A stretch of 47,065 nt of DNA from a bacterium (GTDB lineage Bacteria; Planctomycetota; Planctomycetia; Planctomycetales; Planctomycetaceae), in assembly GCA_016124895.1 (NCBI GenBank), contig WGMU01000143.1:1-47065 (forward strand), written 5' to 3'. The notes under the pieces are model-generated. The model did not search any database. It was not told where the DNA came from and saw nothing but the letters and a program-made list of their open reading frames with translations. Below are positions 10,101 to 37,967 of the stretch, piece by piece (position 1 is the stretch's first letter; the number at the start of each line of letters is the position of its first letter). Made by a program: the position numbers and the translations under genes.

Positions 10101-10227
10101 AGTATTCTGTTCGAGATGACGCGTGACCGTCGCCTGGCGAGGGTCCGCCGACATCGCTGCCTGGCTGAATCGGCCCCGTGCCGGCAGCAGGAGCGGCTGC
10201 GTCATAAGGGTCGAACGAGGACGCAAC

Positions 10228-15928: not shown

Positions 15929-15957
15929 CGTCAAACAATTCCCTCTGGATTCCTGCC

Positions 15958-17121: not shown

Positions 17122-17122
17122 C

Positions 17123-17656: not shown

Positions 17657-17660
17657 TCGG

Positions 17661-18947
17661 TTACGGAAGGATAAAGACCAGAGCCGTCGCTGCTCCACCC
17701 TGAGCCAGAGCACCGGTCAGGCTGATCGGCAGCAGCGGAATCGAATATGGCACGCAGGTGCCGGGGCGATCGTTGCCGAGATCGTAAACCGTGTGGCACA
17801 TGCCGTTGTTTTCCGTCGCCATCTGATACGGCAGCGTCACGATGTTGCCGGCAAAACGAGCCGCGGAAACGACCGGCTGCACATACGCGATCTCGTTGCC
17901 GTGCCGCTCAAGCTGCGGATCCTCGAAGTACAGCGGGTTGTATTTGAGGGCCGGAGCTTCCCAGGAATACGAGATCGGTTCCCAGCCACGTCCGAAGCCC
18001 ATTCTCTGATTGACCTGCGGGACCCGCGCGAAGATCCGCATTCCTCGGGCTTCCGGGAGTTCCTGTCGAGAGCCGTCGCGATCCATCAGCGGCGGAGCTG
18101 CACTGAGCGTCGGGCCTCCGAGTGATCGCCAGACATGCGGCTGCTGTTCGATCGTGTTTTCCAGCGATGGCGACTCGGCAATGATGTCCGGCACTGGCTG
18201 GCTGCCCGGCTGCCACGCCGCCACCTGCTCGTTCGCTGCCTGCTCGAACTGCAGACTGCGGACGATCTCGATCTCATCAATGAGCAGTTGAGAGTTTTCC
18301 TCGAAGAGAGCCAGCGGGACCTCACGTTCGGCCGCGGCTTCAGCAAACGCGTGAGCCATCGCGACGTCGCCCTTTTCCAGTTCCCGGCGAGCGCGCGTCA
18401 GGAGTTTTTTCACTTCTTCACTGCCCAGCACAAATGCCCGCGGCGCCGAGCCACCTTCAGCCGCAGAAGCTGGCGGGGCTGGGTGTCGCTGAACAAGAAT
18501 CGGCCCCTGATGCGTGATCGTCGGACCGGACTGCAATTCCGGGTACGGTTGCGACGGAGTCTGTGGTAATGCTCGTGAGAGCCGCTCTGGAAAGATGGAT
18601 TCGCCATCGATTGACTCGATGAGGTCGGCCGCTGAAGCTGGGATCGGTTCGAGTTTGGCAGACCTCGTGGCCGCTGGCGATGACGGCTCGACGGCGACTG
18701 CCGGGCCTTCCCACTCCACATCGACCACGTCGAACTGTTTCTGTATCTGGACGCGGGCGGGCACGGGGGTCGACATCTGCGTGCGTTTTCCCAGCAGGGT
18801 TTCCAGCCTGGGCAGTTCGCCAGCGGTCGACGACGCGGTGAGTGCCGCGCCAGCCAGAAGTGCAGCAGCGAGACACAGCGCCGCTCGGCGACCGGCAGTG
18901 GCCGGGCGACCAGAAATCCATTCTCGGACGAGCGTTCGGATGAGCAC
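17661..18947 (-). CDS. Secreted protein of unknown function with conserved-looking C-terminal block
   Basis: A 428-residue protein. I chose the GTG at 18947 because GGAG lies 9 bases upstream and a basic N-terminus plus a hydrophobic signal (A-A-L-C-L-A-A-A-L-L-A-G-A-A-L) follow at once; the frame is open 53 codons further. The middle is Ala/Glu/Pro-rich with a helical segment (S-E-E-V-K-K-L-L-T-R-A-R-R-E-L-E-K-G) resembling a tetratricopeptide-like hairpin. The last 110 residues (Y-N-P-L-Y-F-E-D-P-Q-L-E-R-H-G, then A-A-R-F-A-G-N-I-V-T-L-P-Y-Q-M and Y-D-L-G-N-D-R-P-G-T-C-V-P-Y) resemble a block I remember from other planctomycete proteins, with no known function. It precedes the UPF0102 gene by 4 bases. 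Confidence 0.75.
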   Translation of the reverse strand: MLIRTLVREWISGRPATAGRRAALCLAAALLAGAALTASSTAGELPRLETLLGKRTQMSTPVPARVQIQKQFDVVDVEWEGPAVAVEPSSPAATRSAKLEPIPASAADLIESIDGESIFPERLSRALPQTPSQPYPELQSGPTITHQGPILVQRHPAPPASAAEGGSAPRAFVLGSEEVKKLLTRARRELEKGDVAMAHAFAEAAAEREVPLALFEENSQLLIDEIEIVRSLQFEQAANEQVAAWQPGSQPVPDIIAESPSLENTIEQQPHVWRSLGGPTLSAAPPLMDRDGSRQELPEARGMRIFARVPQVNQRMGFGRGWEPISYSWEAPALKYNPLYFEDPQLERHGNEIAYVQPVVSAARFAGNIVTLPYQMATENNGMCHTVYDLGNDRPGTCVPYSIPLLPISLTGALAQGGAATALVFILP

Positions 18948-19165
18948 GGCGACGATCTCCTGCTGGTCAGCCGGCTTCTCCCTGGATCCTGCAGAGAGAA
19001 TCTTCCTGGCTGTACTGGCGGTATCTTCGTCATAAGGCGACCGCCAAATCGAGCACCAGAGAATCGACCGCTGTGACCCTCGCAGGTGTGCCTCGCAACT
19101 TAGCATCCCCGGACTGCGTAACCGGTAAAGTTTGACGGCGTGACGACTCGGAATCAGCAGTCCGT

Positions 19166-19684
19166 CTACGCAATGCTGCCATCGGCCGAGGCACCGTCGT
19201 CGGCAATCAGTTCGACAGAAGAACTCGCCGGCGGGGACGACTCGCCAGATTTCTTCAGATTCAGCCGCGTTGACTCGTCACTCATCATTCTCGTGGGTGA
19301 CTCGAACAGCGACAGATGACTGAGATCCGAAATGTCGCTGCTGTCTGCGCTGACGTCGGCGACGAGGTCGTAGGCAAACCGCAACTCATACGACGCAATG
19401 CGGATGCAGTCATCCGGCTGCAGACGGTAATACCCCTCGATCTTCTGTCCGTTGACCGTCGTCCCGTTCTGGCTGCCGCAGTCGCCGACGTACCAGTCGC
19501 CGCGCAGCCAGACGACCTCAGCGTGATTTCGGCTGCATTTCGGGTCGGGAATGACAATCCGGTTCTGGCTGGCCCGCCCAATCATAACTCGTCGCTGGGA
19601 CTTCAACCGGTAGATATCGCAGGACGAACTGCCGGACGAAACAACCAGATACGACGTTGTCGGAGTGGTGACGGAGCTGCTCAT
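19166..19684 (-). CDS. FHA domain protein
   Basis: A 172-residue protein whose first two thirds is one forkhead-associated domain (about 12-108). The hallmark residues are all present: G-R at 36-37, S-R-N-H at 51-54 and N-G-T-T-V-N-G at 73-79, so it should bind phosphothreonine peptides. The C-terminal 60 residues are Ser/Asp-rich and probably disordered, with several Ser/Thr that could be phosphorylated. There is no other catalytic domain. It lies 254 bases downstream of the giant secreted-protein genes on the same strand; a functional link is possible but unproven. Planctomycetes have many Ser/Thr kinases, which may supply the ligand. Confidence 0.92.
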   Translation of the reverse strand: MSSSVTTPTTSYLVVSSGSSSCDIYRLKSQRRVMIGRASQNRIVIPDPKCSRNHAEVVWLRGDWYVGDCGSQNGTTVNGQKIEGYYRLQPDDCIRIASYELRFAYDLVADVSADSSDISDLSHLSLFESPTRMMSDESTRLNLKKSGESSPPASSSVELIADDGASADGSIA

Positions 19685-19938: not shown

Positions 19939-22900
19939 TCAGGCAGTCTGGCGAGACCTTGCGTAGCGAGTCATGCCGATCAGCCAGGCAATGACGAAGA
20001 CCGCAAAGCCGAACCCGCTCAGCGGAGCGGGCAGCAGCAGCCAGGCCAGCAGCCCGATCGCGAACGCTGTCCAGACGAGCGTCGGACTGAACCAGTGGCC
20101 GGGGCCGAGCTTGCGGGAGGCCACAATCAGCGCGGCGGCGATCCCGAGCCAGACGACGGTCCAGACGAGCCCGATGCCGCGATCAAGCAACTCGCGCGAC
20201 TGCACTCGCAAACCGAGTCGCGGCTGCCCACTGACTTTTGAGAACGTCAGTCGGTACCCCGATGTTGGAATCTCGACCGGCAGACTGAGACCGCCGACCT
20301 GCGTCCATTCGGGTGACGTCTCGATCCGTTCAAAAACAGGCCCGCCTAATCTGGCTTTTGACTGTGCAATACTCTGAGGATCAGCCAACTCGCCCGGCGC
20401 GACCTTTACCTGGTTGAGTACCGACGCTCCGCTTCCGCCGGTCGCGGTTCCACCTCCTCCGCCGAACCCACCTCCCATGCCTCCCATACCGCCGCCCGCA
20501 CCGAGAGGACGACCGAAAGATTCGGCTCTATCCGATCCGTCACCACCAAGACCACCGCTGCCGAACTTCAGTTCGCCCTGGTCGATCGAGATTCCGCGTC
20601 CTCCGAATTTCCCCAGTCCGGCACCTGCCCGGTTGGCCGCTTCGTTTTCAGACGCTGGCTGCTGTCCTTTTCCCTGATCGAACAGCGAATTCAGGCCGCT
20701 CAGATTGTCGACGCTCTGCTGACGCTGTAACTGGCGGCTGTCGTGCTCTTCGGACTGCTTTTTTACTGCAGACCGTTTGAGTTCGCTCTTGCGATCACTG
20801 CGGGACGCAGGCTGATCGCTCGGGGTTTCAGGTGGAGCGGCCGGCTTCGCGGGCGTCTGGATCGACAGCCGATAGTCGAACACCTCTCCGTCGATCGAAC
20901 GCTCACCGGCGGGCGTCTGACTCTGCCCGGACTGCTGGCTGGAAACCCCAAGCGCTGCCACGTCGACATTATCCAGCACACCGTTACCGTTGAGATCCTC
21001 ACCCGGATCAAGCAGCCCGTTGAGGTTGACGTCCTCACTTAACGATTGAGTAGAGACAGGTCCGTTCCCGAACAGCAGCGCGCGATTGTTGAAATTGACG
21101 CGCGTCCGATCCTGATCGGACACGCTGCCAGAGGTGCTTGCCGCTGCAGCCTCGCCTTCGGCGGCCAGCGCATCAATCTGCCCCTGATTCTCGACGATCT
21201 GCTGCTGCACCTGCTCAAACTGCTGCCGCAACTCTTCCGACTGCAATCCTTCGCTGTAGTTATGCACGGCAAGACCCAACTGCTTCAGATTGTTCGCCGC
21301 GACGCCCTGCGAACGGCGCGAGTAATCGCTGCTGCTCGTCACATTCAGCAGCGCACTCAGGTCGGAAAGCTGCGACTTGAGATATGCCTCCGCGGTGTCA
21401 CTGCTCTTCGCGACGTTAACGTTCGTCCGTTTGCTGTCGTCGATCAGCAGCGCGTCGATATCGCGCGGCAGCCAGACATTCCACAGAGTCCGCGCGACAG
21501 GGATGCCGTACTCGTCGCTCTCGTTGGGAGTAACCACCTGCGGCGCCGGCAGGTCGAGTTCGTCGCGTCGCAGCGCGAGTCCCGCTGGCAGCTCGCGTTC
21601 AAACTTCCCGGCGAAGACCAGCTTCACTGGAAACGAAATGTCGGCATTGCTGGTTTTCGGCAGAGGCACCAGGTGGACGGTCTGACCATCGAGTTCTGTC
21701 AGCACGGGCCGCGACGGCTGATCCTTCACAAACAGTGACAGTAACCGTGAGCCGGCCGGCAGCCTCACACCCAGAAACTGACGTCGCAGATTCCGCACCG
21801 TATAGACCGCCTGGCTGCGCCACGTACCGTCCCAGTGAACGACCAGCGTCAGATCGGCGACGTTGACCGACGCCGCGGCTCCGACTGTCTGCTGAAACCG
21901 CCGGACGGTCCAGGATGGAACCTTCGTAATGTCGCGAACTCGCAGGATCTCAGCCGCCTGGTCGGTCAGATGCGTCCCGATCTGGATCGGAAGATCATCA
22001 ACGAGCACCGCTTCGACACTGCTGTCGTGTTGCCCGGCGAGCTGCCCCTGCGACTGGTTCACGAGGATCGAATACAGCCGCTGCGGATCGACGCTGACAA
22101 ATCCAACCGCGTCGCCGAACTCGTCAAACACCGGTTGCTCGAACCGCACGATCGGCGTTTCAACCGTTGTCGTCGCGGGTGGCAGCGTTGCCGTCGCCAG
22201 TGCGAAGTAGCGATCACGGATCGCATCGTTAAGCTGAATCGTCCAGCGCAGCTCGCCGCCGACTTTCTCGCTGGTCACGCTGCGGATCGAGTTACCTTCG
22301 AGCTTCAGCCGGTTCTCCAGTGACGGCGGCGTCAGGAAGAACAGCCGGTCGGTCGCCGCTGCGTCGATCTTCCAGTTCAGCGCCAGCGAGTAATCCAGAA
22401 ACGTGTCGGCGACAGTCGTCACGACAACCGCGTCAGCACTCAGTCGCGGCTGCGCCTGCATGACTTCAAAGCTGATCACGCCCGCCTCGTCGCCCGTCGA
22501 CTGAAACGCGTACTGCACCGGTCGCGGCTGCTTGTTGCGGATGTCGCCCGGCAGCCGGCTCGGGTCGATCTGCTCCCAACCGACCAGATCGCTGGCCGTG
22601 GCCGAATACGCATCGTCGATCCACACGCCAGCCCACATCGTGCGGCGGGTCATGTCGAGCGGGAACGGCGGGATCACCTCGACAACCAGATCGCGCGGAT
22701 CTTTCGTTGTCCGGCCAGTCACGATGACCTCGACATCGCCAAGCTGCGGATCAGTGAACTCGACTGTCAGCGACCGAGGAGTCACGCCGTCCGATGCGGT
22801 GACGTACCAGTCGGCCAGCGCCGTCGCCTGCACGCTGAGCGGCAGGTAACCGTCGATCAGTTCAAACGTCAGTGCCGATCGCGGAGCCCCCTTCAGCGAC

Positions 22901-25900
22901 GCGACCACGCGCGTGCCAAGCTGCACCTTGCGACGTTGAACGACGATCGCGTGCTCGACGCGGGTCGTCGATTCCGCCTGCCGCCGCGCCGCCACAAACT
23001 GCAGCGAGAAGGGTCGCGCCGAGTAACGCCAGGCAAGCTGTTGCTGCGTTGCCGTTCCAGGTGGAGCGTTCGGCTGCTGTCCGATTTCAATCTGCCGCAA
23101 GCCCTCGGTCTGACCGGCCCGCAGGCTGAAGCTGTCAGTCGTGGAGACGACGATCGTGCCGGCATCGCGAGTCACATCGAGTGGCGCAATCGTCGGCAGC
23201 GAGATTGTGGCTTCGTTTTCGGTCACCGGTTCGGCCAGAAAGAGCTGCGCATCAACAATCGTCTGACCGCTGACTGGTGGGTTGAAAAAGACGCGCAGCC
23301 GTCGCTGACCGTCGACTTCGGCCGACTCCCAGCCGGAAAGCTGCGGCCCCGTGAGGCTGCGGATCTTCAGTCCGTCCGGCACAACGAACGACAGATCGGC
23401 AACGCTACCCTGCGGCACGCTGATCGAAACCCGCGACACTTCCGAGATTCCGCGATCATCCAGACGTACGGTCGTCGCCGTGTCGACATGCACGATGGCG
23501 TCAACCATGCCCTGCTGTTGCGGCGGTCGCCAGGCAATCGTCAGAGGCTGTCCCGATCCGACCGGCACAATGATCGACTCGGACGCTTCCGCGGTCTGCG
23601 GCACGCGACGATACGCACTCGTCGACCCATTCACACGCACCGCGAGGTCTGCTTCCGGCAGGTTGTACAGGACTCGGCCGGACGGCACCGGGAAGACCGG
23701 CACGGTACACTGCCCCGTTTGACCGGACACCTGCGCGGCAACATCGAAGTTCAGATCGAGTGTGTGCAGACCGCGTGTCGGCAGCACGACTTCCAGTACG
23801 CTTTGGCCGTTCGCCTGAGTAACGCGCAGCGCCGCTGGTTTGTCATCGAGCTGCGCCGAATTCAGTGCGATCCCCGACAGCGGCACTGGCAGCGTGATCG
23901 CCGCTTCGCGGAAGTTGAACAGGATCAGCGTGGCTGCAACGGAAACCCGCGCCGACGCGTCGTCCTGCGACTTCAGCTCACACAGATAAAACGCATCCGC
24001 GAGAATTCCGTCGCGCGGAGCCGGCGTTGTGAACTTCTCATCCGGCCGCGCGAGGTTCCATAGATCGATAAACTGTTCGCGCGTCAGCAGCACGCGATCG
24101 GCGAACGCTGGGTTCTGAGCGGGATCGAACGGGACGATCACGTCCGTCCGCGGCGGTTTCTGCACGGGAGGCACCGGCGGCGCAGGCTGAATCGCCGGAG
24201 CGCCGGGCTGCGTGGCAGGCGGCTCGGCTGCGACTGCCGGCTCGCAAAGCACCAGCAGCGCGAGCAGCAGACCGGCGGCCGTGCCGGACGTCCGGCCAAT
24301 CGGCGACGTCAGCAGCGCCTTCAGGCTCACTCGACGCAAAAAGTTCAGCACGGCGCGACCGAGCCACAAACCGACGGACAGCAGCCCGCCGAGGAAGACG
24401 CCGTCGAGCACGACAGACAGTGCGTCCGGCGCGATCGAGACCAGTCCCAGCGGCAGCGTGATGCACAGCACAGCGACGATGGCCCGCATTCTCAGACTGG
24501 CTCCGAGCATCAGCCACAGCACCAGCGCGACCGTGACCATCAGAAACGCGCGTCCCAGATCGCCCGCGTGCCGATCCTGCCAGCGCAGTTGAAGCCCAAC
24601 ACCATCCACCGCGTCCCGCGTCCCGTCATATTTCAGTTCGAGCAACCGCGAGTCCTCCGGCACTTCGAGATCCAGCGCCAGCGACAACAGCCCACCCTTG
24701 TCCCGTTGAACGTCTGAACGACCTCGACGGCGAGCGGTCAGTTCGTCCCAGTCGTTGGCGTCTGACGCTGGCTGATCGTCTGGAACTCGAACAATCGCCG
24801 CCATTTCGACCTCGTCAAGCTGCTGCCAGAAGGACTTTTCCTTATCAGCGGCACGCTCGCGTAGCCTCTCTTCCAGCTCCCGGCGTACCGGCGCGTTGTC
24901 GATCCCGGCGACTTTCGCACCAGCCGCCACCGGCGGAGGCGTCGCTGCAGTGGCCGCCGCTGGTTCACTCGCCGGTTTCGCTTCGTCGAAAGCGGCGCTT
25001 CCTCCGCCTTCAAACTGGCCCTTTGTCGTGAATCGCTCTCCGGACTTCGTCGCCAGACCTTCCATTTCGGACGTGTCGAAATACAGATCGGTCGGCGCCG
25101 GAGGCACCGCAGGGGCAGAGTCCGCCACATCGAATTTCGCCATTCCGCCGCGATGCACCGCCTCACGAGCGCTTTGCACGGCGGGCAGCAGCAATGCGAC
25201 GAGAAAAATGCACACAATTCCAGCGCAGACCGCCACGCCGCAACCGCTAAATCCAATGCGCCCAGACGCGCCGGTGCGTTTCAGTACGACGGTGATTGCT
25301 CCGCTGACCAGCAGTGTGAAAAACGCGACGAGCCCGTTCCGCTGCAGCGTGCGCCGGTTGATCCGCGAAAGCTGTGAACGCAGGTCGCCGAGCAGGCTGA
25401 CGGTGTCGAGGTCGTCAGTCGGGGCAAACGCGCCGTTACTTGCCGTGATCAGAACATCGTCCGGATAGTGCAACTGCCAGGACTGGCTGAGTACTTCGAG
25501 CCGTTGCTCCGATCCGGAACTGTGAATCACGCTGACGGCGGGCGGCGACTGCTCCAGTTCGCCAGACGCTTTCAATGCGCCGCCTTCGGTCCGGTACAGC
25601 AGCGTGAGCCTGCGCCGGGCATCGGGCTGACCGGTCAGCGGGATCGGGACCAGATAACTGTTACCGACCGAGCGAACCTCGATCGGAGTCCCGTCGATCA
25701 GCGCGGCCCAGAGATGCGCCGGTTGAACGGCCTTGCCGTCCGTCGACGTCGGCAGCCGGACGCGCAGGCTTTGAGCACCGACGGCGACAAACTGGAACTC
25801 CGCCCGCTGCTGCCATTCGCCAGTCTGCCCGACAACGCTCTCGATTGAGCTGCTGTAGCAGACAGCCGTCGGCACGGCGACGCGGTCAAACCGTGTTTCG

Positions 25901-28287
25901 CTCAACCCGACCGAATGCCCGGCACTGGTGTAGCGCACGGCGGCGACGATGCGTTCCCGCAGGGCGTAGAGGCGAGGTTCGGGCACATCGACCGGATCGA
26001 CCGAGCGCAGCACTGAACCGTCGGAACGAACGGCCGTGACGTCGAGCTGCTGATCGGGTGCGCCTTCAATCGCGATGATTCCGTTGACGCGTTCGGCCGC
26101 GGGAATCGTCAAGTTGTGAATGGCGAATTCGTCCTCGCCACTGCGCTTCGTTGAGGCATCGACCACAACACTGACCGGCCCGAGCACGCGACGATCGAGC
26201 TTCAGCGTCCACAGCCGCAGACCACCGGACGCCTCGCCGGGAAGCTGCTCAATGATCTGCACCGGAGTGAGCAATTGGCCCTGCGGACCCCGCCGCCAGG
26301 CCGAAAACTGCAGATCTTCGCCCGCCGACTCCGACAGCCCAACCTGCAGCTCGCGCAATCCGCCACCGTCGATATTCAGATCCGCTTCCAGATGCGACCA
26401 CAGCGTCTCGCGATCCAGCCGCGCGTACGTCACCGTGTTGGCGGAAATCAGCGACGGCGTGCGCGAGACCTTAACCGTGCCCGCGTAGTCCGCCTGCTGA
26501 AAGAAGAACCGTAATCGCTCGTCAGCCGCTTTCGATTCGGCCGGATCAAGCGCGAACGGATCGAGCAGCGTGACCGTCAGGTCCGGCCGCGCGGTCACGA
26601 TCAGCGTGCCTTCGACTGTCGACGCTTCGGCGATCGTGATGTTTGGCAGCGGAATCTCGACGGGGTCCGTTTCAATCGGCCAGCCTTCGATCTCCGTGCG
26701 TGACAGAAACTGCACGTTGAGTGACTGTCCGGGTTCCAGCGGCTGCGGCAGGCGCACTGAGTAATCGTTCCAGCCGGCTTCGCGCGAACTGACCAGCCAG
26801 TTCACAGCCTGCCCGTTGATCTGCAACTGCTCGACAATCCACTCGGCCGGCAGCCGGAACTCGACATCAAACAGCGGCTCGAAGCGGCTCTTCAATGCCA
26901 GCGTCGCTCCGAAGGTGATCTGCGTATCGTCGAGGTCAAGCCGCGCCGTTATGACCGCACTGACTTCGCGCCGCCGCGTCTGCGTTTCAAATGCCAGCGA
27001 GAAATTCTCACGCCAGACATCAAAGACCTGCGTCCCCGGCTGCCCGGTCGATGGTCGCACGCCGTCCGACTCGACCAGCCGCATACGACTGCCCGCCGCG
27101 TGCTGCACGACGACTCGCCCGGAATGCGACGTCACGTTGCGGATGACGAGCGCCGGCAGCGACCACGGTTCGCCAACTCCGGTCGCCATCACACCGCGAA
27201 AGACGACGTCCCGCTGTCCATCAAACGGCTGTCGGTAATTCAGTGTGATCTGAATCGCGTTCGCGTCGTCAGGACTGTCGGCGAGTTCCCACGACTCCAG
27301 CCCGTTCGAGCTGACGTCGGTAATCTCCAGCTCGCGCGGCACCAGACAGACCAGCCGGTTGAGCTGCGAACCGAAGACCTGCAGCGTCGTCTTCGCCTGC
27401 CAGGCGATTTCGCCCGGCACAACACTGACACCGTAACCCGTCGCCGCAAACGTCAGCGAATCCGCCGACTGCTGGCCCTGCTGATCGGTAAACAGCAATC
27501 GCAGATCGTGCGCGCCGCCGACTGGAACAACGTACGTTGCAGGCTGTTCGATTGGAGCTGGGCGATCGAGTTGTCGGCCACCAATCCGCAGATGCTTGCC
27601 CGCCGGAGCCGTCACGCTGAGCGTCGCCGACGGCACGTTCAGCAGACGAAACATCGCCGCAAGATCGCTGCCCGTCGCCGAGAGCCGCGTCGACAGGGTG
27701 AGATTCAGAGTCGCTGCGCCCGGTTGATTATGAAACAACAGCAGCGCCGGTTCCGGGAGTCGGCCCCGCATCTGCTCGGCCTGTTGCGGCACTTGAGCCT
27801 GTTGATTGGCGGCCTGCTGCTGCGGCATCGGCGGAACGAATTCCGTGCGAGCGAGCCTGGCCGGCTGACCGTCTACCCGAGCCTGTTCGACTGCTAGACC
27901 GCCGAGCGGCAGCGACAGCGTCTGCCAGCCGTCGATGAACTGCTCAAAGTTTACCGTCGCATCAATCACCAGATGATCGCCGTCGATCCGTGCCGCGTAA
28001 TCGGCCGACGAGACAACAACGGTCGCCGGGACACGCGGCGCCGCCTCGGCATTCTTCTTCGCCGCCGAGTAAAGCTGGTCGAACTCGCCCCGTTCGAGTA
28101 ACACGCCTTCCGCGTCACCCGCAATGACAACATCCAGTTCCGAAGCCGGCACAAACGTCTGCTGCGTCGGCAACGGCGTGTTCGAGTTCGAGTCGCCGCG
28201 GACGCCAGGCTGAGCTTCCAGACGAAGACTCGAAGCCAGCAAGCAGCAGCTACAGACCAGAAAGGTCAGAAGTCGTCGGTAAATCAT
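19939..28287 (-). CDS. Giant secreted/membrane protein (2782 aa), two repeated beta-rich modules, unknown function
   Basis: The ATG at 28287 follows a strong GGAGG site and opens a signal peptide (about 1-25). Module 1 spans about 45-970 and module 2 about 1380-2260; both open with a similar E-F-x-x-L or E-Q-F-I-D-L-W segment and a long beta-rich tract, and end with a related L-R-V-R-L-P or L-G-V-R-L-P-A-G-S-R-L-L strand. Between them lie membrane segments near 981-1003, 1012-1036 and 1240-1310, and a hydrophobic A-G-L-L-L-A-L-L-V-L-C-E-P-A-V-A-A near 1330 resembling an internal signal peptide. DUF1559-like pieces occur at about 1029-1045 (L-L-L-P-A-V-Q-S-A-R-E-A) and 2325-2345 (N-N-L-K-Q-L-G-L-A-V-H-N-Y), an EF-hand-like segment at about 2416-2447, a Gly-rich run near 2600-2625, and C-terminal membrane helices. 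No catalytic motif was found. Confidence 0.8.
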   Translation of the reverse strand: MIYRRLLTFLVCSCCLLASSLRLEAQPGVRGDSNSNTPLPTQQTFVPASELDVVIAGDAEGVLLERGEFDQLYSAAKKNAEAAPRVPATVVVSSADYAARIDGDHLVIDATVNFEQFIDGWQTLSLPLGGLAVEQARVDGQPARLARTEFVPPMPQQQAANQQAQVPQQAEQMRGRLPEPALLLFHNQPGAATLNLTLSTRLSATGSDLAAMFRLLNVPSATLSVTAPAGKHLRIGGRQLDRPAPIEQPATYVVPVGGAHDLRLLFTDQQGQQSADSLTFAATGYGVSVVPGEIAWQAKTTLQVFGSQLNRLVCLVPRELEITDVSSNGLESWELADSPDDANAIQITLNYRQPFDGQRDVVFRGVMATGVGEPWSLPALVIRNVTSHSGRVVVQHAAGSRMRLVESDGVRPSTGQPGTQVFDVWRENFSLAFETQTRRREVSAVITARLDLDDTQITFGATLALKSRFEPLFDVEFRLPAEWIVEQLQINGQAVNWLVSSREAGWNDYSVRLPQPLEPGQSLNVQFLSRTEIEGWPIETDPVEIPLPNITIAEASTVEGTLIVTARPDLTVTLLDPFALDPAESKAADERLRFFFQQADYAGTVKVSRTPSLISANTVTYARLDRETLWSHLEADLNIDGGGLRELQVGLSESAGEDLQFSAWRRGPQGQLLTPVQIIEQLPGEASGGLRLWTLKLDRRVLGPVSVVVDASTKRSGEDEFAIHNLTIPAAERVNGIIAIEGAPDQQLDVTAVRSDGSVLRSVDPVDVPEPRLYALRERIVAAVRYTSAGHSVGLSETRFDRVAVPTAVCYSSSIESVVGQTGEWQQRAEFQFVAVGAQSLRVRLPTSTDGKAVQPAHLWAALIDGTPIEVRSVGNSYLVPIPLTGQPDARRRLTLLYRTEGGALKASGELEQSPPAVSVIHSSGSEQRLEVLSQSWQLHYPDDVLITASNGAFAPTDDLDTVSLLGDLRSQLSRINRRTLQRNGLVAFFTLLVSGAITVVLKRTGASGRIGFSGCGVAVCAGIVCIFLVALLLPAVQSAREAVHRGGMAKFDVADSAPAVPPAPTDLYFDTSEMEGLATKSGERFTTKGQFEGGGSAAFDEAKPASEPAAATAATPPPVAAGAKVAGIDNAPVRRELEERLRERAADKEKSFWQQLDEVEMAAIVRVPDDQPASDANDWDELTARRRGRSDVQRDKGGLLSLALDLEVPEDSRLLELKYDGTRDAVDGVGLQLRWQDRHAGDLGRAFLMVTVALVLWLMLGASLRMRAIVAVLCITLPLGLVSIAPDALSVVLDGVFLGGLLSVGLWLGRAVLNFLRRVSLKALLTSPIGRTSGTAAGLLLALLVLCEPAVAAEPPATQPGAPAIQPAPPVPPVQKPPRTDVIVPFDPAQNPAFADRVLLTREQFIDLWNLARPDEKFTTPAPRDGILADAFYLCELKSQDDASARVSVAATLILFNFREAAITLPVPLSGIALNSAQLDDKPAALRVTQANGQSVLEVVLPTRGLHTLDLNFDVAAQVSGQTGQCTVPVFPVPSGRVLYNLPEADLAVRVNGSTSAYRRVPQTAEASESIIVPVGSGQPLTIAWRPPQQQGMVDAIVHVDTATTVRLDDRGISEVSRVSISVPQGSVADLSFVVPDGLKIRSLTGPQLSGWESAEVDGQRRLRVFFNPPVSGQTIVDAQLFLAEPVTENEATISLPTIAPLDVTRDAGTIVVSTTDSFSLRAGQTEGLRQIEIGQQPNAPPGTATQQQLAWRYSARPFSLQFVAARRQAESTTRVEHAIVVQRRKVQLGTRVVASLKGAPRSALTFELIDGYLPLSVQATALADWYVTASDGVTPRSLTVEFTDPQLGDVEVIVTGRTTKDPRDLVVEVIPPFPLDMTRRTMWAGVWIDDAYSATASDLVGWEQIDPSRLPGDIRNKQPRPVQYAFQSTGDEAGVISFEVMQAQPRLSADAVVVTTVADTFLDYSLALNWKIDAAATDRLFFLTPPSLENRLKLEGNSIRSVTSEKVGGELRWTIQLNDAIRDRYFALATATLPPATTTVETPIVRFEQPVFDEFGDAVGFVSVDPQRLYSILVNQSQGQLAGQHDSSVEAVLVDDLPIQIGTHLTDQAAEILRVRDITKVPSWTVRRFQQTVGAAASVNVADLTLVVHWDGTWRSQAVYTVRNLRRQFLGVRLPAGSRLLSLFVKDQPSRPVLTELDGQTVHLVPLPKTSNADISFPVKLVFAGKFERELPAGLALRRDELDLPAPQVVTPNESDEYGIPVARTLWNVWLPRDIDALLIDDSKRTNVNVAKSSDTAEAYLKSQLSDLSALLNVTSSSDYSRRSQGVAANNLKQLGLAVHNYSEGLQSEELRQQFEQVQQQIVENQGQIDALAAEGEAAAASTSGSVSDQDRTRVNFNNRALLFGNGPVSTQSLSEDVNLNGLLDPGEDLNGNGVLDNVDVAALGVSSQQSGQSQTPAGERSIDGEVFDYRLSIQTPAKPAAPPETPSDQPASRSDRKSELKRSAVKKQSEEHDSRQLQRQQSVDNLSGLNSLFDQGKGQQPASENEAANRAGAGLGKFGGRGISIDQGELKFGSGGLGGDGSDRAESFGRPLGAGGGMGGMGGGFGGGGGTATGGSGASVLNQVKVAPGELADPQSIAQSKARLGGPVFERIETSPEWTQVGGLSLPVEIPTSGYRLTFSKVSGQPRLGLRVQSRELLDRGIGLVWTVVWLGIAAALIVASRKLGPGHWFSPTLVWTAFAIGLLAWLLLPAPLSGFGFAVFVIAWLIGMTRYARSRQTA

Positions 28288-28297
28288 GGCGGCCTCC

Positions 28298-31200
28298 TTA
28301 CTCACCAAACTGGTTACGGAGGTCGTCGAAGACACCCGGCGGCGGGATCACCGCAGCAACGGCCGGCTGGAAGTTCGGCGGGGCAGCCGCGGTTGGCGGA
28401 GGCGGAGCTGACTTCTCAGCGTGCTCGCGCCAGTTGAACAGCAGATGCAGCATCCAGATTCCAGCGAGAGCAAACACGCCGAAGCGCGCCGTCGAGACGA
28501 TCTCGGCTGTCCAGCCGGGAGCCGTCAGGCCGCACAGTGCGACTGCGAAGCCGGCCACCAGTACCAGCAGTAGCTTCGTGTCCCATGACAGGCCACGCAG
28601 CAGAACGGCGATGACCACGAGCGCGCCGCTGTACAGCCACGTGTAGTTGTGATGGTTGGCGAAGGTCACTTCGATCTTCGGAGCACCGCCCAGACTGCTG
28701 TAGCGGTACCGGTTACCTTCGGTCGGAAAGTCAATGAAGCCGGCTCGCGGCACACCGATCCACTCTTCGATGTCCAGCGAGTCAAAGCCGATCCAACGGT
28801 TCTGATCGGGATTTAACGCCCATTCGAGCCGCATCTGAGTTTCGTTGGTAAAACCCTCAGCATCGTCGACGAGGCGAAATTCCTCGGGCACCCAGATCAC
28901 GGTGTTGAGCTGCTGCAGTGCGACGGCCGAGTTGTCGTACCCGCCGATCTGTGGCAGCCGCAGCAGCAGTCGTCCGCCCCAGGTCTCGACAAACGGAGCC
29001 GCTTCGGCAATCGGCGTCATCATCTGCAGCGTCAGTGAGAACGGCGCATCAGACGCGGCCGGCCGGGCCACGCTGACGAAGTACGAATCCCACTCGTTGC
29101 TTTCCAGCGGCTGACTGTTCCGCTCAGGATTGACCGGCTGTCCGTCGACAAAGACGCCCAGCAGTTCCGAGCCGACTGGCACATCAACCCTCAGCCGCTG
29201 CCGCTCGCTCGACCGGATTCGGTACCGGCAGCGGTAGTTCGCTTTGGTGTCGCGGCGTGTGACGACTTCGACCAGTCCACGCGTGACCACGGTTTCGACG
29301 ACCTTTTGAAGCTCGTGCTTCGTCGCGTCGATCTTCAGACCGACCGGCTGACGGAAGTAGCGATACGCGACCGCGCCGCTTTGCGGCAGCATCTGCAACT
29401 CGCGAATGTCGATGGCTTCCAGTCCTTCGTCGAGCGGCTTTGTCTCGACCGCCAGTGACCGGTCTTTCTGCACGACGACTTCGCCGGCCACGTCGGCGAG
29501 TGCCACTTCCGGTTGATCGCCTTCGCCGTCGAGCCCCAGGACTCGCAGCGTCTGAAACACAAGCTTGATCGCCCTGTTCGTCGCGGCCTGACTGTCAGTG
29601 GCACCACCTGAACCCGTTGCGGGTGCGTCGTCATCAACAGCTCCATCGGCCGCCGCCGCGTCTCCCGGAGCTGGCTCGGGCGGCGCATCCGGAGTCTGGT
29701 CCCAGGACACCTGAAACCGGTGGCTGCCCGAGACCGGCCGCTGCATCGTGACCGTCCAGGTGATCCAGCCATCGACCGCTTCTTCTGCAGGCACGCTCTG
29801 TTTGATCGCCGGGGCACCGCCGCCTTCCAGCGACATGACCTGGACTTTTTCAGAAACGGCTTCCGGGACGGCGAAGCGGAACGTGTCGAGTCCCGCGAAC
29901 TGGACGTCGTACGTCAGCAGTGTTTTGACTTCGACCAGCTCCTCTTTGACGTTGACCGTCGTTCCGACGCGGACGGTCAGTCGAGTCGGGCGGCGTTCGG
30001 TGCGAATCGGAATCTCGACCGGCCGCCGGTTAAACGTCCAGGCAACAACGGAGCGCTGCGCCACAGCCTGCTGGTTCGGGGCGAGGCCGTCGATCGGAGC
30101 CGGCTGCGCGGCGATGACGTTTTCCTGATTCGTGATAATGTCGATGCCCTGCGACGCGACGATCGACACGCGAGCGACTTCGCGTTCAACGTCCAGTGGT
30201 TCAGGGATCGGCAACGTCAGTTCGAGCTGGTCCGTTTTATCTTCGATCGCAACGTGCCCGCGGACCTGCAGAGTGAACTGCTGGGACGGGGCCGACTTCT
30301 GACCGAAGACAACGCGGAGCACGTTCTGAGCGCCATTCTCCAGATGATGCTCACGATAAAGACCGACGTTGTCCGACACGCCGTCAACGATCAGGCCTTC
30401 CGGAATCGCGACCCGCAGTTCAAATACGCCGGCACGCTCGACGGTGTAGTTCAGCGAGGCAAGGAGTTTCAGTTCGTCGTCGGTCAGCTCGAACCGGTAA
30501 TCGCTGTCGACCAGCAGCCGCGGTTCGACCGGCTTCGCGGTCACGATCAGTTCGATATTTGAGCTGTAGAACTTGAAGGTCGGTGTTCCGTCACGACGCA
30601 GCCGTTCAGCGACTTCCGACGTTTCGATCCGAGCCAGCCCGGTCAGCTTGTCAAACTGCAGCGACAGATCGTTCGCCGCCGCGATCGAAATCTGTCCGGA
30701 TTCGCGCACGGCATCGATGGCATGGATCCCGTGATACTTTCCGGCGTCGTCGCGACCAGCCAGCGGCAGAGGATCGGTGCCGAATTCCCGTTCGCTGTGA
30801 ATCTCGATGGTGATGTCATCACGAACCGGATTGAGGAAGTCGATTGTCAGCGTCTGCGCGCCGTCGCCAGGGACCGCCTTCCACCCACGGATTTTCGCGT
30901 TGCCGGACGAGACTCCCAGAATGCGATGCGAAGTCGGGACGGCGATCGCCACAGAAGCCATCTCACCGCGCAGGATGTCGTAGTCGAGCCACGCGTCCGT
31001 ATGCGCGAGTCCGTCGCGCAGCGTCACCTGCTGATGATTGGTGACGGCCGCCAGCAGTTCCATGTCCGGCTTCAGGCCCGTCTTCGCGTGCCAGTTGGCG
31101 GCGATCGACGTGGTCGAGCCGAGCGTCGCCTTGATCCGAGTCCCGCCGGCAGCAGCCTCGACGGGAAGTGAGACCAACTGTGGCGTCAGTTCGACGGTCT

Positions 31201-31930
31201 GATCGGCTTCGGGAATTGCCAGCTCGAACGTCGTGATTCCGACTGGCGGAACCGAGAAGCTTGCCGACCGGCCATCTGGCGACGTGTTGATCGGAACGGC
31301 CAGCTCGAGCTTCACAACGTGTTCGCCTGCCTCGCCGAACACCAGCGAGTAAGTTCCGTTGCCCGTTCCGCGGAGCAGAACCTGCTGGCCATCACCAGCG
31401 GTCAACTTGCCGACCGCGGCGGCTCCGAATTGAACCGGGATTTCGACCCAGGGCTTACCGAGCACCTGCACCGTCAGCTCGGCATCAATCCGCAGCAGCG
31501 ACTGGTCTACTCGGCCGCGATAGTGCGACTGCGTGATCACGCCGTCGATCGTCGCAGCTTCCGGCTCGGTGTCGTGCCAACGTTTCAGATACTCGCTGTA
31601 CGGCAGAAAGACCGTCGAACCGTGCCGGTCAAACGCGTCCTTCAGATTCCGATACGGCAGATAAATCAGACGGTCCCAGACGGTACCGGTCTCGGCTTTC
31701 GGTCCGACGGCACCTCCTGCGTCCAGCTGCGTCGCCGCTCCGACGGGGGCAGAGGTCGCTGGCGTCGGCGTCTCAGGTGGACGCGGAGAATTCGGATTGT
31801 TGTCCTGTGCGAAAAGGCTCCCGCTCAGCAGGATCAGTGCCGTCAGTCCCAGCAGGACACGGTATCCCGACAGGCTCGGCGAGCTGCGCTCTCGGCGCAA
31901 CCTGTTTCCAGTTCGGCTGTTGCCCCACAT
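28298..31930 (-). CDS. Large secreted/membrane protein (1210 aa), same module as the giant neighbour
   Basis: I chose the ATG at 31930 because AGGA lies 8 bases upstream; an in-frame ATG three codons earlier (31939) is possible. A basic stretch is followed by a hydrophobic segment ending S-G-S-L-F-A-Q, a signal peptide with a long n-region. The body (about 75-1060) is beta-rich and homologous in layout to the modules of the gene downstream: it opens with L-P-Y-S-E-Y-L-K-R-W and closes with L-R-V-D-V-P-V-G-S-E-L-L-G-V-F-V-D-G-Q-P at about 910-930. Two or three membrane helices (about 1100-1165) and a Pro-rich tail follow. An acidic Ala/Asp/Gly linker lies near 745-775. Its stop is 10 bases before the next ATG, so the two are an operon. 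Confidence 0.8.
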   Translation of the reverse strand: MWGNSRTGNRLRRERSSPSLSGYRVLLGLTALILLSGSLFAQDNNPNSPRPPETPTPATSAPVGAATQLDAGGAVGPKAETGTVWDRLIYLPYRNLKDAFDRHGSTVFLPYSEYLKRWHDTEPEAATIDGVITQSHYRGRVDQSLLRIDAELTVQVLGKPWVEIPVQFGAAAVGKLTAGDGQQVLLRGTGNGTYSLVFGEAGEHVVKLELAVPINTSPDGRSASFSVPPVGITTFELAIPEADQTVELTPQLVSLPVEAAAGGTRIKATLGSTTSIAANWHAKTGLKPDMELLAAVTNHQQVTLRDGLAHTDAWLDYDILRGEMASVAIAVPTSHRILGVSSGNAKIRGWKAVPGDGAQTLTIDFLNPVRDDITIEIHSEREFGTDPLPLAGRDDAGKYHGIHAIDAVRESGQISIAAANDLSLQFDKLTGLARIETSEVAERLRRDGTPTFKFYSSNIELIVTAKPVEPRLLVDSDYRFELTDDELKLLASLNYTVERAGVFELRVAIPEGLIVDGVSDNVGLYREHHLENGAQNVLRVVFGQKSAPSQQFTLQVRGHVAIEDKTDQLELTLPIPEPLDVEREVARVSIVASQGIDIITNQENVIAAQPAPIDGLAPNQQAVAQRSVVAWTFNRRPVEIPIRTERRPTRLTVRVGTTVNVKEELVEVKTLLTYDVQFAGLDTFRFAVPEAVSEKVQVMSLEGGGAPAIKQSVPAEEAVDGWITWTVTMQRPVSGSHRFQVSWDQTPDAPPEPAPGDAAAADGAVDDDAPATGSGGATDSQAATNRAIKLVFQTLRVLGLDGEGDQPEVALADVAGEVVVQKDRSLAVETKPLDEGLEAIDIRELQMLPQSGAVAYRYFRQPVGLKIDATKHELQKVVETVVTRGLVEVVTRRDTKANYRCRYRIRSSERQRLRVDVPVGSELLGVFVDGQPVNPERNSQPLESNEWDSYFVSVARPAASDAPFSLTLQMMTPIAEAAPFVETWGGRLLLRLPQIGGYDNSAVALQQLNTVIWVPEEFRLVDDAEGFTNETQMRLEWALNPDQNRWIGFDSLDIEEWIGVPRAGFIDFPTEGNRYRYSSLGGAPKIEVTFANHHNYTWLYSGALVVIAVLLRGLSWDTKLLLVLVAGFAVALCGLTAPGWTAEIVSTARFGVFALAGIWMLHLLFNWREHAEKSAPPPPTAAAPPNFQPAVAAVIPPPGVFDDLRNQFGE

Positions 31931-32373: not shown

Positions 32374-35013
32374 GTGGACGACGCAATCGACAACGATCCC
32401 TTTGTGCTGCACGTCAGAACGGTGACGGGAGCTGGCGGGGGACCGGAGAAGACGATCCTCAATTCGCCGAGGTTTCTGCGATTGCTCGGCTACAAGTCTG
32501 CCTGCGCGTACCTGCATCCACCCGACGACCCTGGCTTCGAACCACTCCGCGACCGGGCTCTTGAAGCGGGAGCCGAACTGATCTCCGTTCCCGATCGAGG
32601 CATCTCCGACTTCAGCATTGTCCGACGGCTGCTGCGAATCTGCCGCGAACGTAACGTCGCGATCTGGCACGGTCACGATTACAAGTCCGACGCAATCGGT
32701 CTGCTGCTGCGCTGCTTTCACCCGATGAAGCTGGTGTCGACAGTTCACGGCTGGGGAGTCCGGTCGTGGAAGACACCGCTTTATCACGCCGTCGATCGCT
32801 TTGCTCTGCGGCATCACGACCGCGTCGTCTGCGTTTCCGACGAACTACTGTGTCAGTGCATTAAGGCACGAATTCCAATCGGTCGCTGTAGCGAGATCGC
32901 GAACGGCATTGATCTCTCGGCTTACGACAACCTGCCGGACCGCGTCGCTGCGCGCGTCGAATTCGGCATTCACAACGAGCATCCCCTGCTGATCGCTGTC
33001 GGCCGACTCTCAGCCGAGAAAGGCTTTGACGTTCTGATCCGCGCCGTCGACCAGCTCATCGAGTCCGGGATGCGGGTCAATCTGCTGATCGCCGGAAACG
33101 GCCCACTGCTCGCGAAACTCGAACAGCTCATCGCCAGCACTGGACACGACGGACTGATCCGGTTACTCGGTCACGTGGCCGATCCGCGTCGTCTGTTCGC
33201 CGCGGCCGACGCGTTCGTGCTCAGCAGCCGATCCGAAGGTCTGCCCAACGTTCTGCTCGAATCGCTGGTCTGCCGCGTCCCGGTTGTTGCGACGCCGGTG
33301 GGAGCCGTTCCGAACGTCGCGACCGACGGCGAGGACGCGCTGCTGGTCCCCGTGGACGATACCGACGCACTGACCGTCGCGCTGACTCGTCTGCTGAGCA
33401 ACCCGTCGCTGCATCAGATGCTCGCCGAGAACGGACGCCGCACCGTCGAGCGGCAGTTCAGCTTCGCGACGCGGATGCAGAAGATGGCCGCGCTGTACGA
33501 CAGCCTGCTCGGCCGAACCCGTGGAACAGGCAGCCTGCCAGTTGACAGCCCAGGAACTTCTGACGGGCAGGATTCCTGTCCGACTCGTCCACTCATCCCC
33601 ACGCATTGCGTGGGAACTCAGAACACCGACGCTCCGTGTCGATTCGAACTCTGTCGGAATCAACCGACGGAGAACACCAATCCAATCAACGTGTCATTGC
33701 AGCGCAAAGGCACGAAGCTGCAACGATTCACGAAGGCTTTGCGTTTCTCCGCGGCTTCGCGCCTTTGCGCTGCCGTCAGCCTGAAAAACGACAAGTCATC
33801 ACGAAGGTATTCCTCAGTGGACGCAGAGCGTCCCGGCGAACGTTCCGACGCAGAGGGTGAGAGCGAGTCTCGCAAACGTGGGAATGAAGCCGAATTGCGA
33901 CACGAGGACGAAGTCGCGACCGCAACACTGACGAAGCCGGCCATTGAAAAGTCGACATCATCGCCAGTTGCTGTTCGATACAAGCCACGGATCGAACTGA
34001 CCGCCTCGCCGGAAACCTGGCGCGACTATCTCGCGGCACGCGGGCACGCCGGCTTTTATCAGCGCGCGGCGTGGTCGCGAATTCTCAGTCGCGGTCTGCA
34101 GCACGAAGCGGTCTGTCTTCAGGCACTCGATGGTCCGCAACTCGTTGGCGTGCTGCCGCTAATGTTTGTCCGTAGCCGGCTGTTCGGTCGGTTTCTCGTC
34201 AGCCTGCCGTATCTCAATTCTGCGGGCGTTGTCGCTGACTCGCCCGAAATCGCGACGGCGCTTGTCGACAAGGCAGTCAAACTCGCGGACCAGCTCGACG
34301 TCCGGTATCTCGAACTGCGGCACGAACAGGCGGTTGAGCATCCTGCGCTGACAGAAGCGGTCACCGACAAAGTCCATATGCGGCTGACGCTGCCGGCAAC
34401 GCCCGACGAATTGTGGAACTCCTTCAAATCGAAACTCCGCAGTCAGATTCGCAAGCCACTGACGAACGAACGGCTCAGCGTCGAGTGGGGCAGCCACGAC
34501 ATACTCAACGAGTTCTACGACGTCTTTACACAGAACATGCGCGACCTCGGCACGCCGCCGTTCAGCCGCGCCCTGTTCGCCGCCATGCTCGACGAACTGC
34601 CCGGCGACGCCGAGATCTGCGTCGTGCGTTGCGACGGCCGCGCCATCGCGTCCGGCCTGCTGATTCACGGTCCGGGAGTCACCGAAGTTCCGAGTGCGAG
34701 TTCGCTCCGCGAGTTCAACGGCACGGCCGCCAACATGCTGCTGTACTGGCATCTGTTGAGTCGCGCTATCGAACGCGGCCAGCACACGTTCGACTTCGGT
34801 CGCAGTTCGAAAGACAGCGGCACGTACTGCTTCAAGGCTCAGTGGGGAGCGACTGAATTCCCGGCCGTCTGGCAGCACTACGTGCGCGAGGGATCGGCCA
34901 GTGACATGCGACCGAACAGTGGTAAGTACGACCTGATGATCAACACCTGGCAGAAGCTGCCGGTCTGGCTCACGAAACTGATCGGCCCGTCCATCGTTCG
35001 AGGCATCCCTTAA
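32374..35013 (+). CDS. Glycosyltransferase (GT4) fused to a FemAB/GNAT-like protein
   Basis: An 879-residue frame with GTG start and GGAA 8 bases upstream. Residues 1-382 are a complete GT4 enzyme: G-G-G-P-E-K-T near the N-terminus, A-V-G-R-L-S-A-E-K-G near 207 and E-G-L-P-N-V-L-L-E-S near 287 for the nucleotide sugar. Residues 533-879 resemble FemAB-type proteins of the PEP-CTERM/XrtA group: K-L-R-S-Q-I-R-K-P and D-F-G-R-S-S-K-D-S-G-T-Y-C-F-K-x-Q-W-G. The 150-residue linker is translated from dispersed repeats, including an 18-bp-armed hairpin, so these were probably two genes joined by repeat insertion. A GTG at 33817 with AAGG upstream could start the FemAB part separately. First gene of the EPS locus. 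Confidence 0.85.
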   Translation: MDDAIDNDPFVLHVRTVTGAGGGPEKTILNSPRFLRLLGYKSACAYLHPPDDPGFEPLRDRALEAGAELISVPDRGISDFSIVRRLLRICRERNVAIWHGHDYKSDAIGLLLRCFHPMKLVSTVHGWGVRSWKTPLYHAVDRFALRHHDRVVCVSDELLCQCIKARIPIGRCSEIANGIDLSAYDNLPDRVAARVEFGIHNEHPLLIAVGRLSAEKGFDVLIRAVDQLIESGMRVNLLIAGNGPLLAKLEQLIASTGHDGLIRLLGHVADPRRLFAAADAFVLSSRSEGLPNVLLESLVCRVPVVATPVGAVPNVATDGEDALLVPVDDTDALTVALTRLLSNPSLHQMLAENGRRTVERQFSFATRMQKMAALYDSLLGRTRGTGSLPVDSPGTSDGQDSCPTRPLIPTHCVGTQNTDAPCRFELCRNQPTENTNPINVSLQRKGTKLQRFTKALRFSAASRLCAAVSLKNDKSSRRYSSVDAERPGERSDAEGESESRKRGNEAELRHEDEVATATLTKPAIEKSTSSPVAVRYKPRIELTASPETWRDYLAARGHAGFYQRAAWSRILSRGLQHEAVCLQALDGPQLVGVLPLMFVRSRLFGRFLVSLPYLNSAGVVADSPEIATALVDKAVKLADQLDVRYLELRHEQAVEHPALTEAVTDKVHMRLTLPATPDELWNSFKSKLRSQIRKPLTNERLSVEWGSHDILNEFYDVFTQNMRDLGTPPFSRALFAAMLDELPGDAEICVVRCDGRAIASGLLIHGPGVTEVPSASSLREFNGTAANMLLYWHLLSRAIERGQHTFDFGRSSKDSGTYCFKAQWGATEFPAVWQHYVREGSASDMRPNSGKYDLMINTWQKLPVWLTKLIGPSIVRGIP
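33598..33614. repeat. Perfect palindrome inside the GT-FemAB linker
   Basis: CCCACGCA, one T, then TGCGTGGG. It belongs to a repeat type translated as H-C-V-G-T; a related stretch (GTGGGAACG context, translated T-L-C-V-G-T) recurs near 44010-44035 in the tail of the amidotransferase gene. Confidence 0.65.
33701..33771. repeat. Large hairpin repeat inside the GT-FemAB linker
   Basis: Arms of 18 bp (33701-33718, starting AGCGCAAAGGC, and 33754-33771, ending GCCTTTGCGCT) match with one mismatch around a 35-base centre. The translated text (R-K-G-T-K-L-Q-R-F, then A-A-S-R-L-C-A-A-V) is of the kind repeatedly seen in spurious planctomycete ORFs, which indicates a noncoding dispersed element caught in frame. 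Confidence 0.75.
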
Positions 35014-35014
35014 C

Positions 35015-35082
35015 GAAGTCGGAACGCGGAAGTCGGAAAAGGCGTTTTGCTTCCGACTTCCGACTTCCGACTTCCGACTTCG
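35015..35082. repeat. Heptamer tandem repeat with hairpin between GT-FemAB and flippase genes
   Basis: Four direct copies of TTCCGAC lie at 35051-35078 and end 7 bases before the flippase ATG. Upstream are inverted copies, and GGAAGTCGGAA at 35028-35038 pairs perfectly with TTCCGACTTCC at 35051-35061 over a 12-base loop. No ribosome site is visible between the repeat and the start codon. The stretch fills nearly the whole 72-base gap. Confidence 0.85.
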
Positions 35083-35085
35083 CCC

Positions 35086-36606: not shown

Positions 36607-36649
36607 CGCGGACTTCCGAATTACTCTCACTCTGCCCCGCACAACTCTG

Positions 36650-37831: not shown

Positions 37832-37967
37832 CAGCAGGGGTCGGGAGTCTTTTTCGGTCCTGGTCTTTCGTCAGTGGAAACTGCCTTGACCAAAAACATC
37901 CCCCAACCCTTTCGTGATCACCTGGACCAAACGGGTTTTGCTGGATTGTGACTGGAAACGAAACGAC

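Follow-up and report, generated by a model that had tools for sequence, protein, structure and literature searches.

Giant envelope proteins of planctomycetes built from three homologous units, with linkers that carry secretin-, pilin- and BamA-like fragments

Introduction

What are the two giant proteins encoded side by side in a planctomycete genome, and how did the larger one come to hold stretches that resemble other envelope proteins? The genes, here called P1 and P2, lie on a 47,065-nucleotide (nt) stretch of DNA, contig C158 of genome G000 (8.1 Mb, 195 contigs); the whole stretch is referred to as the window. An earlier note on this DNA had proposed two giant secreted proteins of no named family, built from one module used three times. 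The open reading frame (ORF) coordinates, on the minus strand, agree with its placing of an adjacent pair with a 10-nt gap, and the motifs it quoted are found in the P1 and P2 translations.

28298..31930, minus strand: P1, 1210 amino acids (aa), with a signal-peptide-like start, one unit and membrane helices (ORF and model)
19939..28287, minus strand: P2, 2782 aa, with two units within one gene and two long linkers (ORF and hhalign)

Upstream starts would allow longer in-frame ORFs of 1332 aa (P1) and 2798 aa (P2). The starts chosen in the earlier note lie shortly before hydrophobic, signal-peptide-like stretches.

Results

Three homologous units in two genes

Separate alignments were made of the P1 and of the P2 homologs, and their profiles were compared with hhalign. 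P1 matched P2 unit A (E 8e-56, 942 columns, 17% identity) and P2 unit B (E 1e-56, 846 columns, 17% identity), and the two P2 units matched each other (E 5e-54, 1156 columns, 18% identity). These alignments show that P1, unit A and unit B are homologous across nearly their whole length. The similarity of three modules, one in P1 and two in P2, is thus borne out by profile alignment, at E-values (1e-56 to 5e-54) beyond chance. Secondary off-diagonal matches (E down to 2e-21) point to internal repetition in each unit, and the P1 profile scored 39 to 376 bits on the P2 ORFs of the fetched loci.

Each unit has the same layout: it opens with a signal-peptide-like segment, continues as a chain of beta-sandwiches and, after a short membrane-proximal stretch, closes with membrane helices, about three by our reading of their number. 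In P2, the start of unit B is an internal signal-peptide-like helix. Linkers 1 and 2 stand before the membrane-proximal stretches of units A and B, respectively, and are poorly conserved (mean column identity 13% and 18%).

31808..31864, minus strand: P1 signal-peptide-like hydrophobic stretch, residues 23-41 (hydropathy scan)
28415..28654, minus strand: P1 membrane helices, residues 1093-1172 (four helices at model 1012-1091; hydropathy >1.6 at 1105-1123 and 1120-1138)
24343..28215, minus strand: P2 unit A together with linker 1 and the unit's membrane helices, residues 25-1315 (hhalign against P1)
24226..24282, minus strand: internal signal-peptide-like helix ahead of unit B, P2 residues 1336-1354 (hydropathy)
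21388..24135, minus strand: P2 unit B ectodomain, residues 1385-2300 (hhalign against P1; AlphaFold2 model)
19978..20175, minus strand: P2 C-terminal membrane helices, residues 2705-2770 (three hydropathy windows; also in aligned homologs)

Signal-peptide-like starts and membrane helices are present in both proteins, in line with the envelope location proposed earlier. The description as secreted is refined: by model and hydropathy, P1 and P2 look like membrane-anchored proteins whose ectodomains are large, and not simply secreted. By our own reading of the positive-inside rule, the sandwich chains would face the periplasm.

The units are not always joined. In G065 and G066, genomes from other families, the units are spread over three separate tandem genes, one in each, P2 is split at the unit border into two genes in L086 and L090, and unit A is a separate gene in L273, L274, L086 and L090. 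Because the units occur as separate genes elsewhere, P2 most likely arose by fusion of two unit genes, and the helix at residues 1336-1354 is the likely fusion point. The two-module P2 of the earlier note holds and was incomplete: units A and B are separate genes elsewhere, and the linkers hold secretin, pilin and BamA fragments.

Fragments of other envelope genes in the P2 linkers

When the own genome was searched in six frames with the window P2, ORFs for a secretin and for BamA were matched in addition to a paralog and a short repeat. The secretin and BamA matches fall in the linkers; linker 2 also holds a pilin-like helix and a repeat.

24718..24885, minus strand: piece of the own-genome secretin in linker 1, P2 residues 1135-1190 (52% identity over 56 aa, E 2e-12; six-frame searches recovered it as well)
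20326..20421, minus strand: linker 2 piece from BamA of the own genome, residues 2623-2654 (32 aa at 81% identity, E 2e-11; six-frame E 1e-8)
25150..25242, minus strand: second P2 membrane helix with the DUF1559-pilin-like end LLLPAVQSAREAVHR, residues 1016-1046 (hydropathy, motif)
21250..21297, minus strand: DUF1559-like helix NNLKQLGLAVHNY in linker 2, residues 2331-2346 (PF07596 E 0.0049; BLAST to a DUF1559-like ORF, E 8e-4)
20968..21042, minus strand: DVNLNGLLDPGEDLNGNGVLDN in linker 2, at approximately residues 2416-2440, a repeat presumably of a calcium-binding type that resembles stretches in further ORFs of several genomes

Pfam finds Secretin (above cut-off) and Omp85/POTRA in the window donors. 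We call the donor secretin PilQ/GspD-type because those models match it, though below their cut-offs. In the BamA-like protein of this genome (L073), the captured piece occurs twice, at residues 551-582 and 619-650, one of the two being a diverged form.

To see how general this is, 113 linkers from 66 P2s (non-redundant at 95%) were surveyed at E <= 1e-3. Secretins were matched by 20 linkers, BamA by 6 and the background set by 19, for which the best match was a pilin-like ORF (9) or a macroglobulin or von Willebrand factor A (VWA) ORF fetched for carrying the secretin piece (10). Shuffled linkers gave no match (0/113). By protein, pieces are present in 31 of the 66 P2s (from a secretin in 20, a pilin in 9 and BamA in 5), the pilin donor set of this count being 4 ORFs, among which the Pfam check covers L125 only. 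With two motif criteria added, 46/66 show a sign of a piece. Secretin, pilin and BamA pieces were absent from all 92 P1s (counted with redundancy) and from all 38 other ORFs of at least 700 aa (45 minus 7 from loci fetched for carrying or adjoining the piece), a control set that is small because its ORFs are mostly neighbours of the pair. The folded parts of P2 gave 8 matches among 177 stretches: five to the paralog in L071 and the others to pilins (the L104 helix), a secretin (L106, in a linker missed by the borders) and an unrelated window ORF (L184, E 6e-4).

Own-genome searches covered seven genomes: G000, which holds the window; G057, G005, G016 and G053, picked since a piece had already been seen; G007, suspected by eye; and G041, chosen without a known piece. 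Five gave a secretin (one of them also BamA) and three gave pilin-like ORFs. Assembly error as the source of the pieces was rejected because they are diverged and are also present in the single-contig genomes G005 and G054.

The donor segments recur. In L072 numbering, most secretin pieces derive from one of two segments, about 1140-1340 and 1630-1690, and one derives from 1543-1602. Four P2s have BamA pieces from within 538-681, and a fifth has one from within 720-801. Both secretin segments are present in L101, in reversed order. The main secretin piece itself is found in 38/41 family genomes, usually once and in a secretin-sized ORF. Ten extra copies were seen, in 3 P2s, 3 alpha-2-macroglobulins, 3 VWA proteins (L183 weak) and 1 small ORF. 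The macroglobulins L178, L181 and L182 and the YfbK-type VWA proteins L179 and L180 have the same secretin segment in their linkers; by eye, L181 at about 1290-1370 and L179 at about 180-230 show further secretin-like stretches (PILNKIPYVS; VILGVTPRIIIE).

The second P2 helix is pilin-like in 27 of 61 proteins, with a DUF1559-type motif in 21/61 and a PilX-like type in 6/61. Elsewhere, in the remaining 151094 residues, these motifs occur 0 and 1 times, as judged with patterns written after viewing the sequences. Against PF07596, the window linker scores 17.4 bits, below the 23.3 cut-off; over 27 linkers, 6 match at E <= 1, the best at 7e-7. L064 has most of a DUF1559 domain at the second helix (profile 11-184 of 268; 71.2 bits, E 1.9e-19). 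In the own-genome searches, the second helix of G016 had a single further ORF as its match, and in G053 this region matches 32 ORFs, nearly all pilin-sized; pilin-sized ORFs were found in G007 too. The pilin and N_methyl models match one DUF1559 ORF. For the PilX-like type, a label given by eye, the N-terminus of a large ORF in L272 matches the L052 second helix; that ORF has no Pfam or NCBIfam match. The prepilin cleavage motif G-FxxxE is not present in the window P2, where GFSGCG precedes the helix.

Source of the secretin pieces

We ranked 31 secretins in the 14 cases whose own secretin belonged to this set, 10 of them P2 linkers and 4 macroglobulin or VWA proteins. The own secretin came first in 13/14 and second in L081; it was best in all four macroglobulin and VWA proteins tested (L178, L182, L179 and L180). 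For L050, L055 and L066 it was the sole match, with a best E of only 0.006 for L055. Between the G046 piece and its own secretin, identity reaches 85% across 99 aa; the three secretins that follow stand at 48-51%.

The main piece was also placed in a maximum-likelihood tree of 46 rows, where 13/14 captured copies group with secretins. Supports are 100/98 for G042, 100/97 for G016, 99/98 for G057 and close relatives, 99/93 for L094 with G054 and 97/91 for seven P2s with G046. They are weaker for G053 (92/56) and G015 (97/57), where the Shimodaira-Hasegawa-like approximate likelihood ratio test (SH-aLRT) gives 56 and 57, and L105 is unplaced. The group test compared P2 with macroglobulin and VWA rows only and so yields no count of captures. 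Taken together, ranks and tree grouping indicate that fragments have been captured in frame, repeatedly and within genomes, from the secretin of the same genome where this is testable. Such capture of gene pieces from pilus and outer-membrane machinery was unexpected.

Predicted fold

AlphaFold2 models were made for P1 and unit B, two of the three units. P1 residues 82-1180 (mean predicted local distance difference test, pLDDT, 84.8) and P2 residues 1400-2300 (pLDDT 84.1) are each predicted as a chain of beta-sandwiches; the predicted template modelling (pTM) scores of 0.43 and 0.42 mean that the arrangement of the domains is not readable from the models.

31082..31555, minus strand: first M1-aminopeptidase N-domain-like sandwich of P1, residues 126-283 (model 45-202 against PepN 4pw4)
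29993..30526, minus strand: further M1-N-like sandwich of P1, residues 469-646 (model 388-565 against ERAP1 9gjs)

The first match has Z 13.1 and a root-mean-square deviation (rmsd) of 3.1 over 152 aa, with similar rows for LTA4H and ERAP1; the second has Z 12.7 and rmsd 3.7 over 161 aa. Unit B gave M1-N-like matches at model positions of about 26-190, 195-370 and 371-545 (Z about 12, rmsd 3.7-4.4). These models suggest that single sandwiches of P1 and unit B resemble M1-aminopeptidase N-domains. The module idea is thereby kept and extended: each unit would be a chain of such sandwiches that ends in its own membrane helices.

Distribution and neighbourhood

P1 and P2 belong to a family that has no name in the libraries searched (Pfam, NCBIfam) and is widespread in the phylum. 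As the earlier note had supposed, neither library covers P1 or P2; only weak matches below cut-off were obtained, including NCBIfam GltJ and FtsL, discarded as far below the model cut-offs. Sequence searches of the PDB with P1 and P2 also gave weak matches only. At E <= 1e-3, and with the own genome included, P1 has matches in 24/40 genomes and P2 in 38/41, four being weak only (G013, G014, G045, G055). At E <= 1e-6 the P1 profile finds the family in 48 of 148 sampled Planctomycetota genomes, each at least 90% complete and with up to five candidates scored. All 67 named loci found with the P1 alignment are titled as planctomycetes.

A survey of conserved adjacency, proposed in the earlier note, found P2 directly after P1 in 76 fetched loci, a count that includes the same genomes from two collections; 11 further P1s lie at contig ends. 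Seven P1s were flagged as non-adjacent despite room. In L054 and L090 the genes overlap through the choice of start, in L117 P2 lies further on with a shortened start, in L127 P1 is in two pieces, in L131 the contig ends 1.5 kb on, and in L122 and L132 there is room beyond P1 and no P2.

The window genome has a second, strongly diverged P1/P2-like pair, L071 (G000:C52), at 7542-11093 and 11248-17688. Its 1183-aa protein is found by the P1 profile (101 bits) and its 2146-aa protein by BLAST only (E down to 3e-5). Similar pairs occur in L075 and L076.

Directly downstream of P2 is an FHA-domain protein (19166-19684, minus strand), and a related gene also follows P2 in L062. The next protein, of 481 aa (17661-19106, minus strand), has no Pfam family at E 1e-5; by eye, its LLTRARRELEKGDVAMAHAFAEAA stretch resembles secretin N-terminus repeats. 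On the opposite strand, positions 32374-44176 (plus strand) encode glycosyltransferases, a polysaccharide synthesis protein and an asparagine synthase; no such polysaccharide-type neighbour is conserved beside the pair.

Discussion

What the pair may do

The identified pieces come from the machinery of pili and secretins and of outer-membrane assembly, a hint that P2 works in its vicinity. We tentatively favour an explanation in which P2 was formed by joining two unit genes, P1 and P2, held by anchors in the inner membrane, make up a long scaffold in the periplasm, and the acquired pieces help P2 to dock near the pilus/secretin and outer-membrane machinery, the last step being the weakest. Several observations weigh against it. 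No gene besides the pair is common to more than four of the 27 loci in the neighbourhood analysis; there is no partner gene, and hence no genetic tie of the pair to a secretin or pilus locus. Secretins are present in genomes without the pair (G008, G017, G022) and in G014, which has a weak P2-like match only, so the pair is not required for a secretin. Different P2s carry different pieces, 20/66 carry none by any of the three criteria, and the own-genome search of G041 found none. The pTM scores leave the shape of such a scaffold unread.

Almost as likely is that the linkers are neutral: in large envelope genes, low-complexity stretches would recombine or undergo gene conversion with one another and so copy flanking coding DNA into the linkers, and the pieces would have no task. 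Poor linker conservation (13% and 18% mean column identity) fits this, as do the variation of pieces among P2s, the reversed secretin segments of L101, the same secretin piece in alpha-2-macroglobulins and VWA proteins, and the low-complexity stretches that by eye adjoin several pieces in donor or recipient (L101, L201, window). Against neutrality, no P1 has a piece, the same donor segments were taken repeatedly, and the own-genome six-frame searches gave few donors, though most of those genomes were chosen knowing a piece. The ratio of nonsynonymous to synonymous substitution rates (dN/dS) points the same way: it is 0.16-0.46, below 0.5 throughout, for pieces in the 6/15 pairs that are readable (dS < 2); four of those six pairs could be read for both, and in them the remainder of linker 1 has 0.47-0.66. 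Where two pieces were captured separately, these values would partly reflect selection in the donor, which tempers their value for the docking proposal. Recurring donor segments and constrained pieces nonetheless lean to use over accident. Very improbable is the notion that the piece shared with secretins is an ordinary domain from a common ancestor. The main piece does look TPR-like, with a weak match of TPR_14 on one linker (E 0.055) and a match of TPR_19 on L187, the small ORF in which the piece sits (E 0.004). Shared ancestry is rejected by the ranks and the tree: the own secretin is best in 13/14, the G046 piece is 85% identical to its own secretin against 48-51% for the next three, and captured copies stand beside secretins with supports of 100/98 (G042), 100/97 (G016) and 99/98 (G057 and relatives).

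Unlikely, in our judgement, is a role in binding macromolecules in the large planctomycete periplasm, with the sandwich chains holding polysaccharide or protein and the membrane end passing it on. Long beta-sandwich chains on membrane anchors would suit such a role, and planctomycetes take dextran and GFP into the periplasm, as described in the available text of PMC5394234. Speaking against it, there is no match to a carbohydrate-binding family in Pfam or NCBIfam and no conserved neighbour that hints at a substrate. A bolder version of the scaffold proposal, which we regard as a long shot, is that P2 is a chimera which time and again renews its linkers from live secretin, pilin and BamA genes of its own cell; as a giant scaffold in the inner membrane it would then offer the pilus/secretin machine baits or surrogate subunits, perhaps within crateriform structures. 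These structures connect the two planctomycete membranes and can carry pilus-like fibres, and the same available text names no protein for their membrane contacts (PMC5394234). A link of P1/P2 to crateriform structures and to DUF1559 genes is speculation; P1 and P2 would be testable candidates for crateriform membrane-contact proteins.

An unnamed giant planctomycete envelope family gains an anatomy, a fold and a likely history of three genes followed by fusion. The linker patchwork offers a chance to follow in-frame fragment capture within bacterial genomes, with identifiable donors and in many lineages. Should the pieces be in use, they would indicate a partner machine. Among the matches listed in the open-licence literature, judged by titles and abstracts, no description of the pair or of such capture was found, which is not proof of absence.

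Comparison with known systems

The protein of the CAGE complex is large, rich in beta-sandwiches and common in Planctomycetota, with a signal peptide in bacteria, and its fold has several all-helical domains (1, 2, 11, 13, 14), according to the accessible part of PMC12485934. The P1 model is beta apart from its membrane end, and no entry described as CAGE was among the 50 Foldseek matches listed for P1. On this difference in architecture, identity with CAGE was provisionally set aside.

P2 is like the DUF1559 pilins (PF07596) in its second helix, in the linker 2 helix and in L064, which has most of the domain; the window P2 differs in scoring below the Pfam cut-off and in being without the prepilin cleavage motif. 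DUF1559 was treated as solute-binding in an older paper (PMC2754498, as far as its available text goes). Planctomycetes have many DUF1559 genes, of which 2/68 are essential in P. limnophila, according to PMC10632474.

For the M1 aminopeptidases (PepN, LTA4H, ERAP1), the likeness is the fold of the N-terminal domain, seen in the P1 and unit B models. P1 and P2 differ in repeating this domain as a chain, in adding membrane helices and in having no sequence-level match; a motif search found neither the HExxH zinc site nor the GxMEN motif in either protein. Chain B of 7edx, which we take to be TAF2, was also among the M1 N-domain-like matches. The best Foldseek match of P1 is an OST-complex chain (E 2e-11), and such chains have the best Z for both models (14.8 for P1, 13.4 for unit B), but with an rmsd of 19-23 A over the whole match and 8-12% identity, so that the agreement is in parts only. 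We take the matched chains to be ribophorin I / OST1, built of M1-N-like domains, with two such sandwiches in tandem. P1 and P2 differ from that family in consisting of three units and in having no Pfam match to it (E <= 1).

The hallmarks of alpha-2-macroglobulins are absent from P1 and P2, which have no MG or A2M domain match in Pfam and no CGEQ thioester motif. The likeness to the bacterial proteins of this kind lies in giant size and many beta-sandwiches, and three planctomycete ones (L178, L181, L182) carry the same secretin piece.

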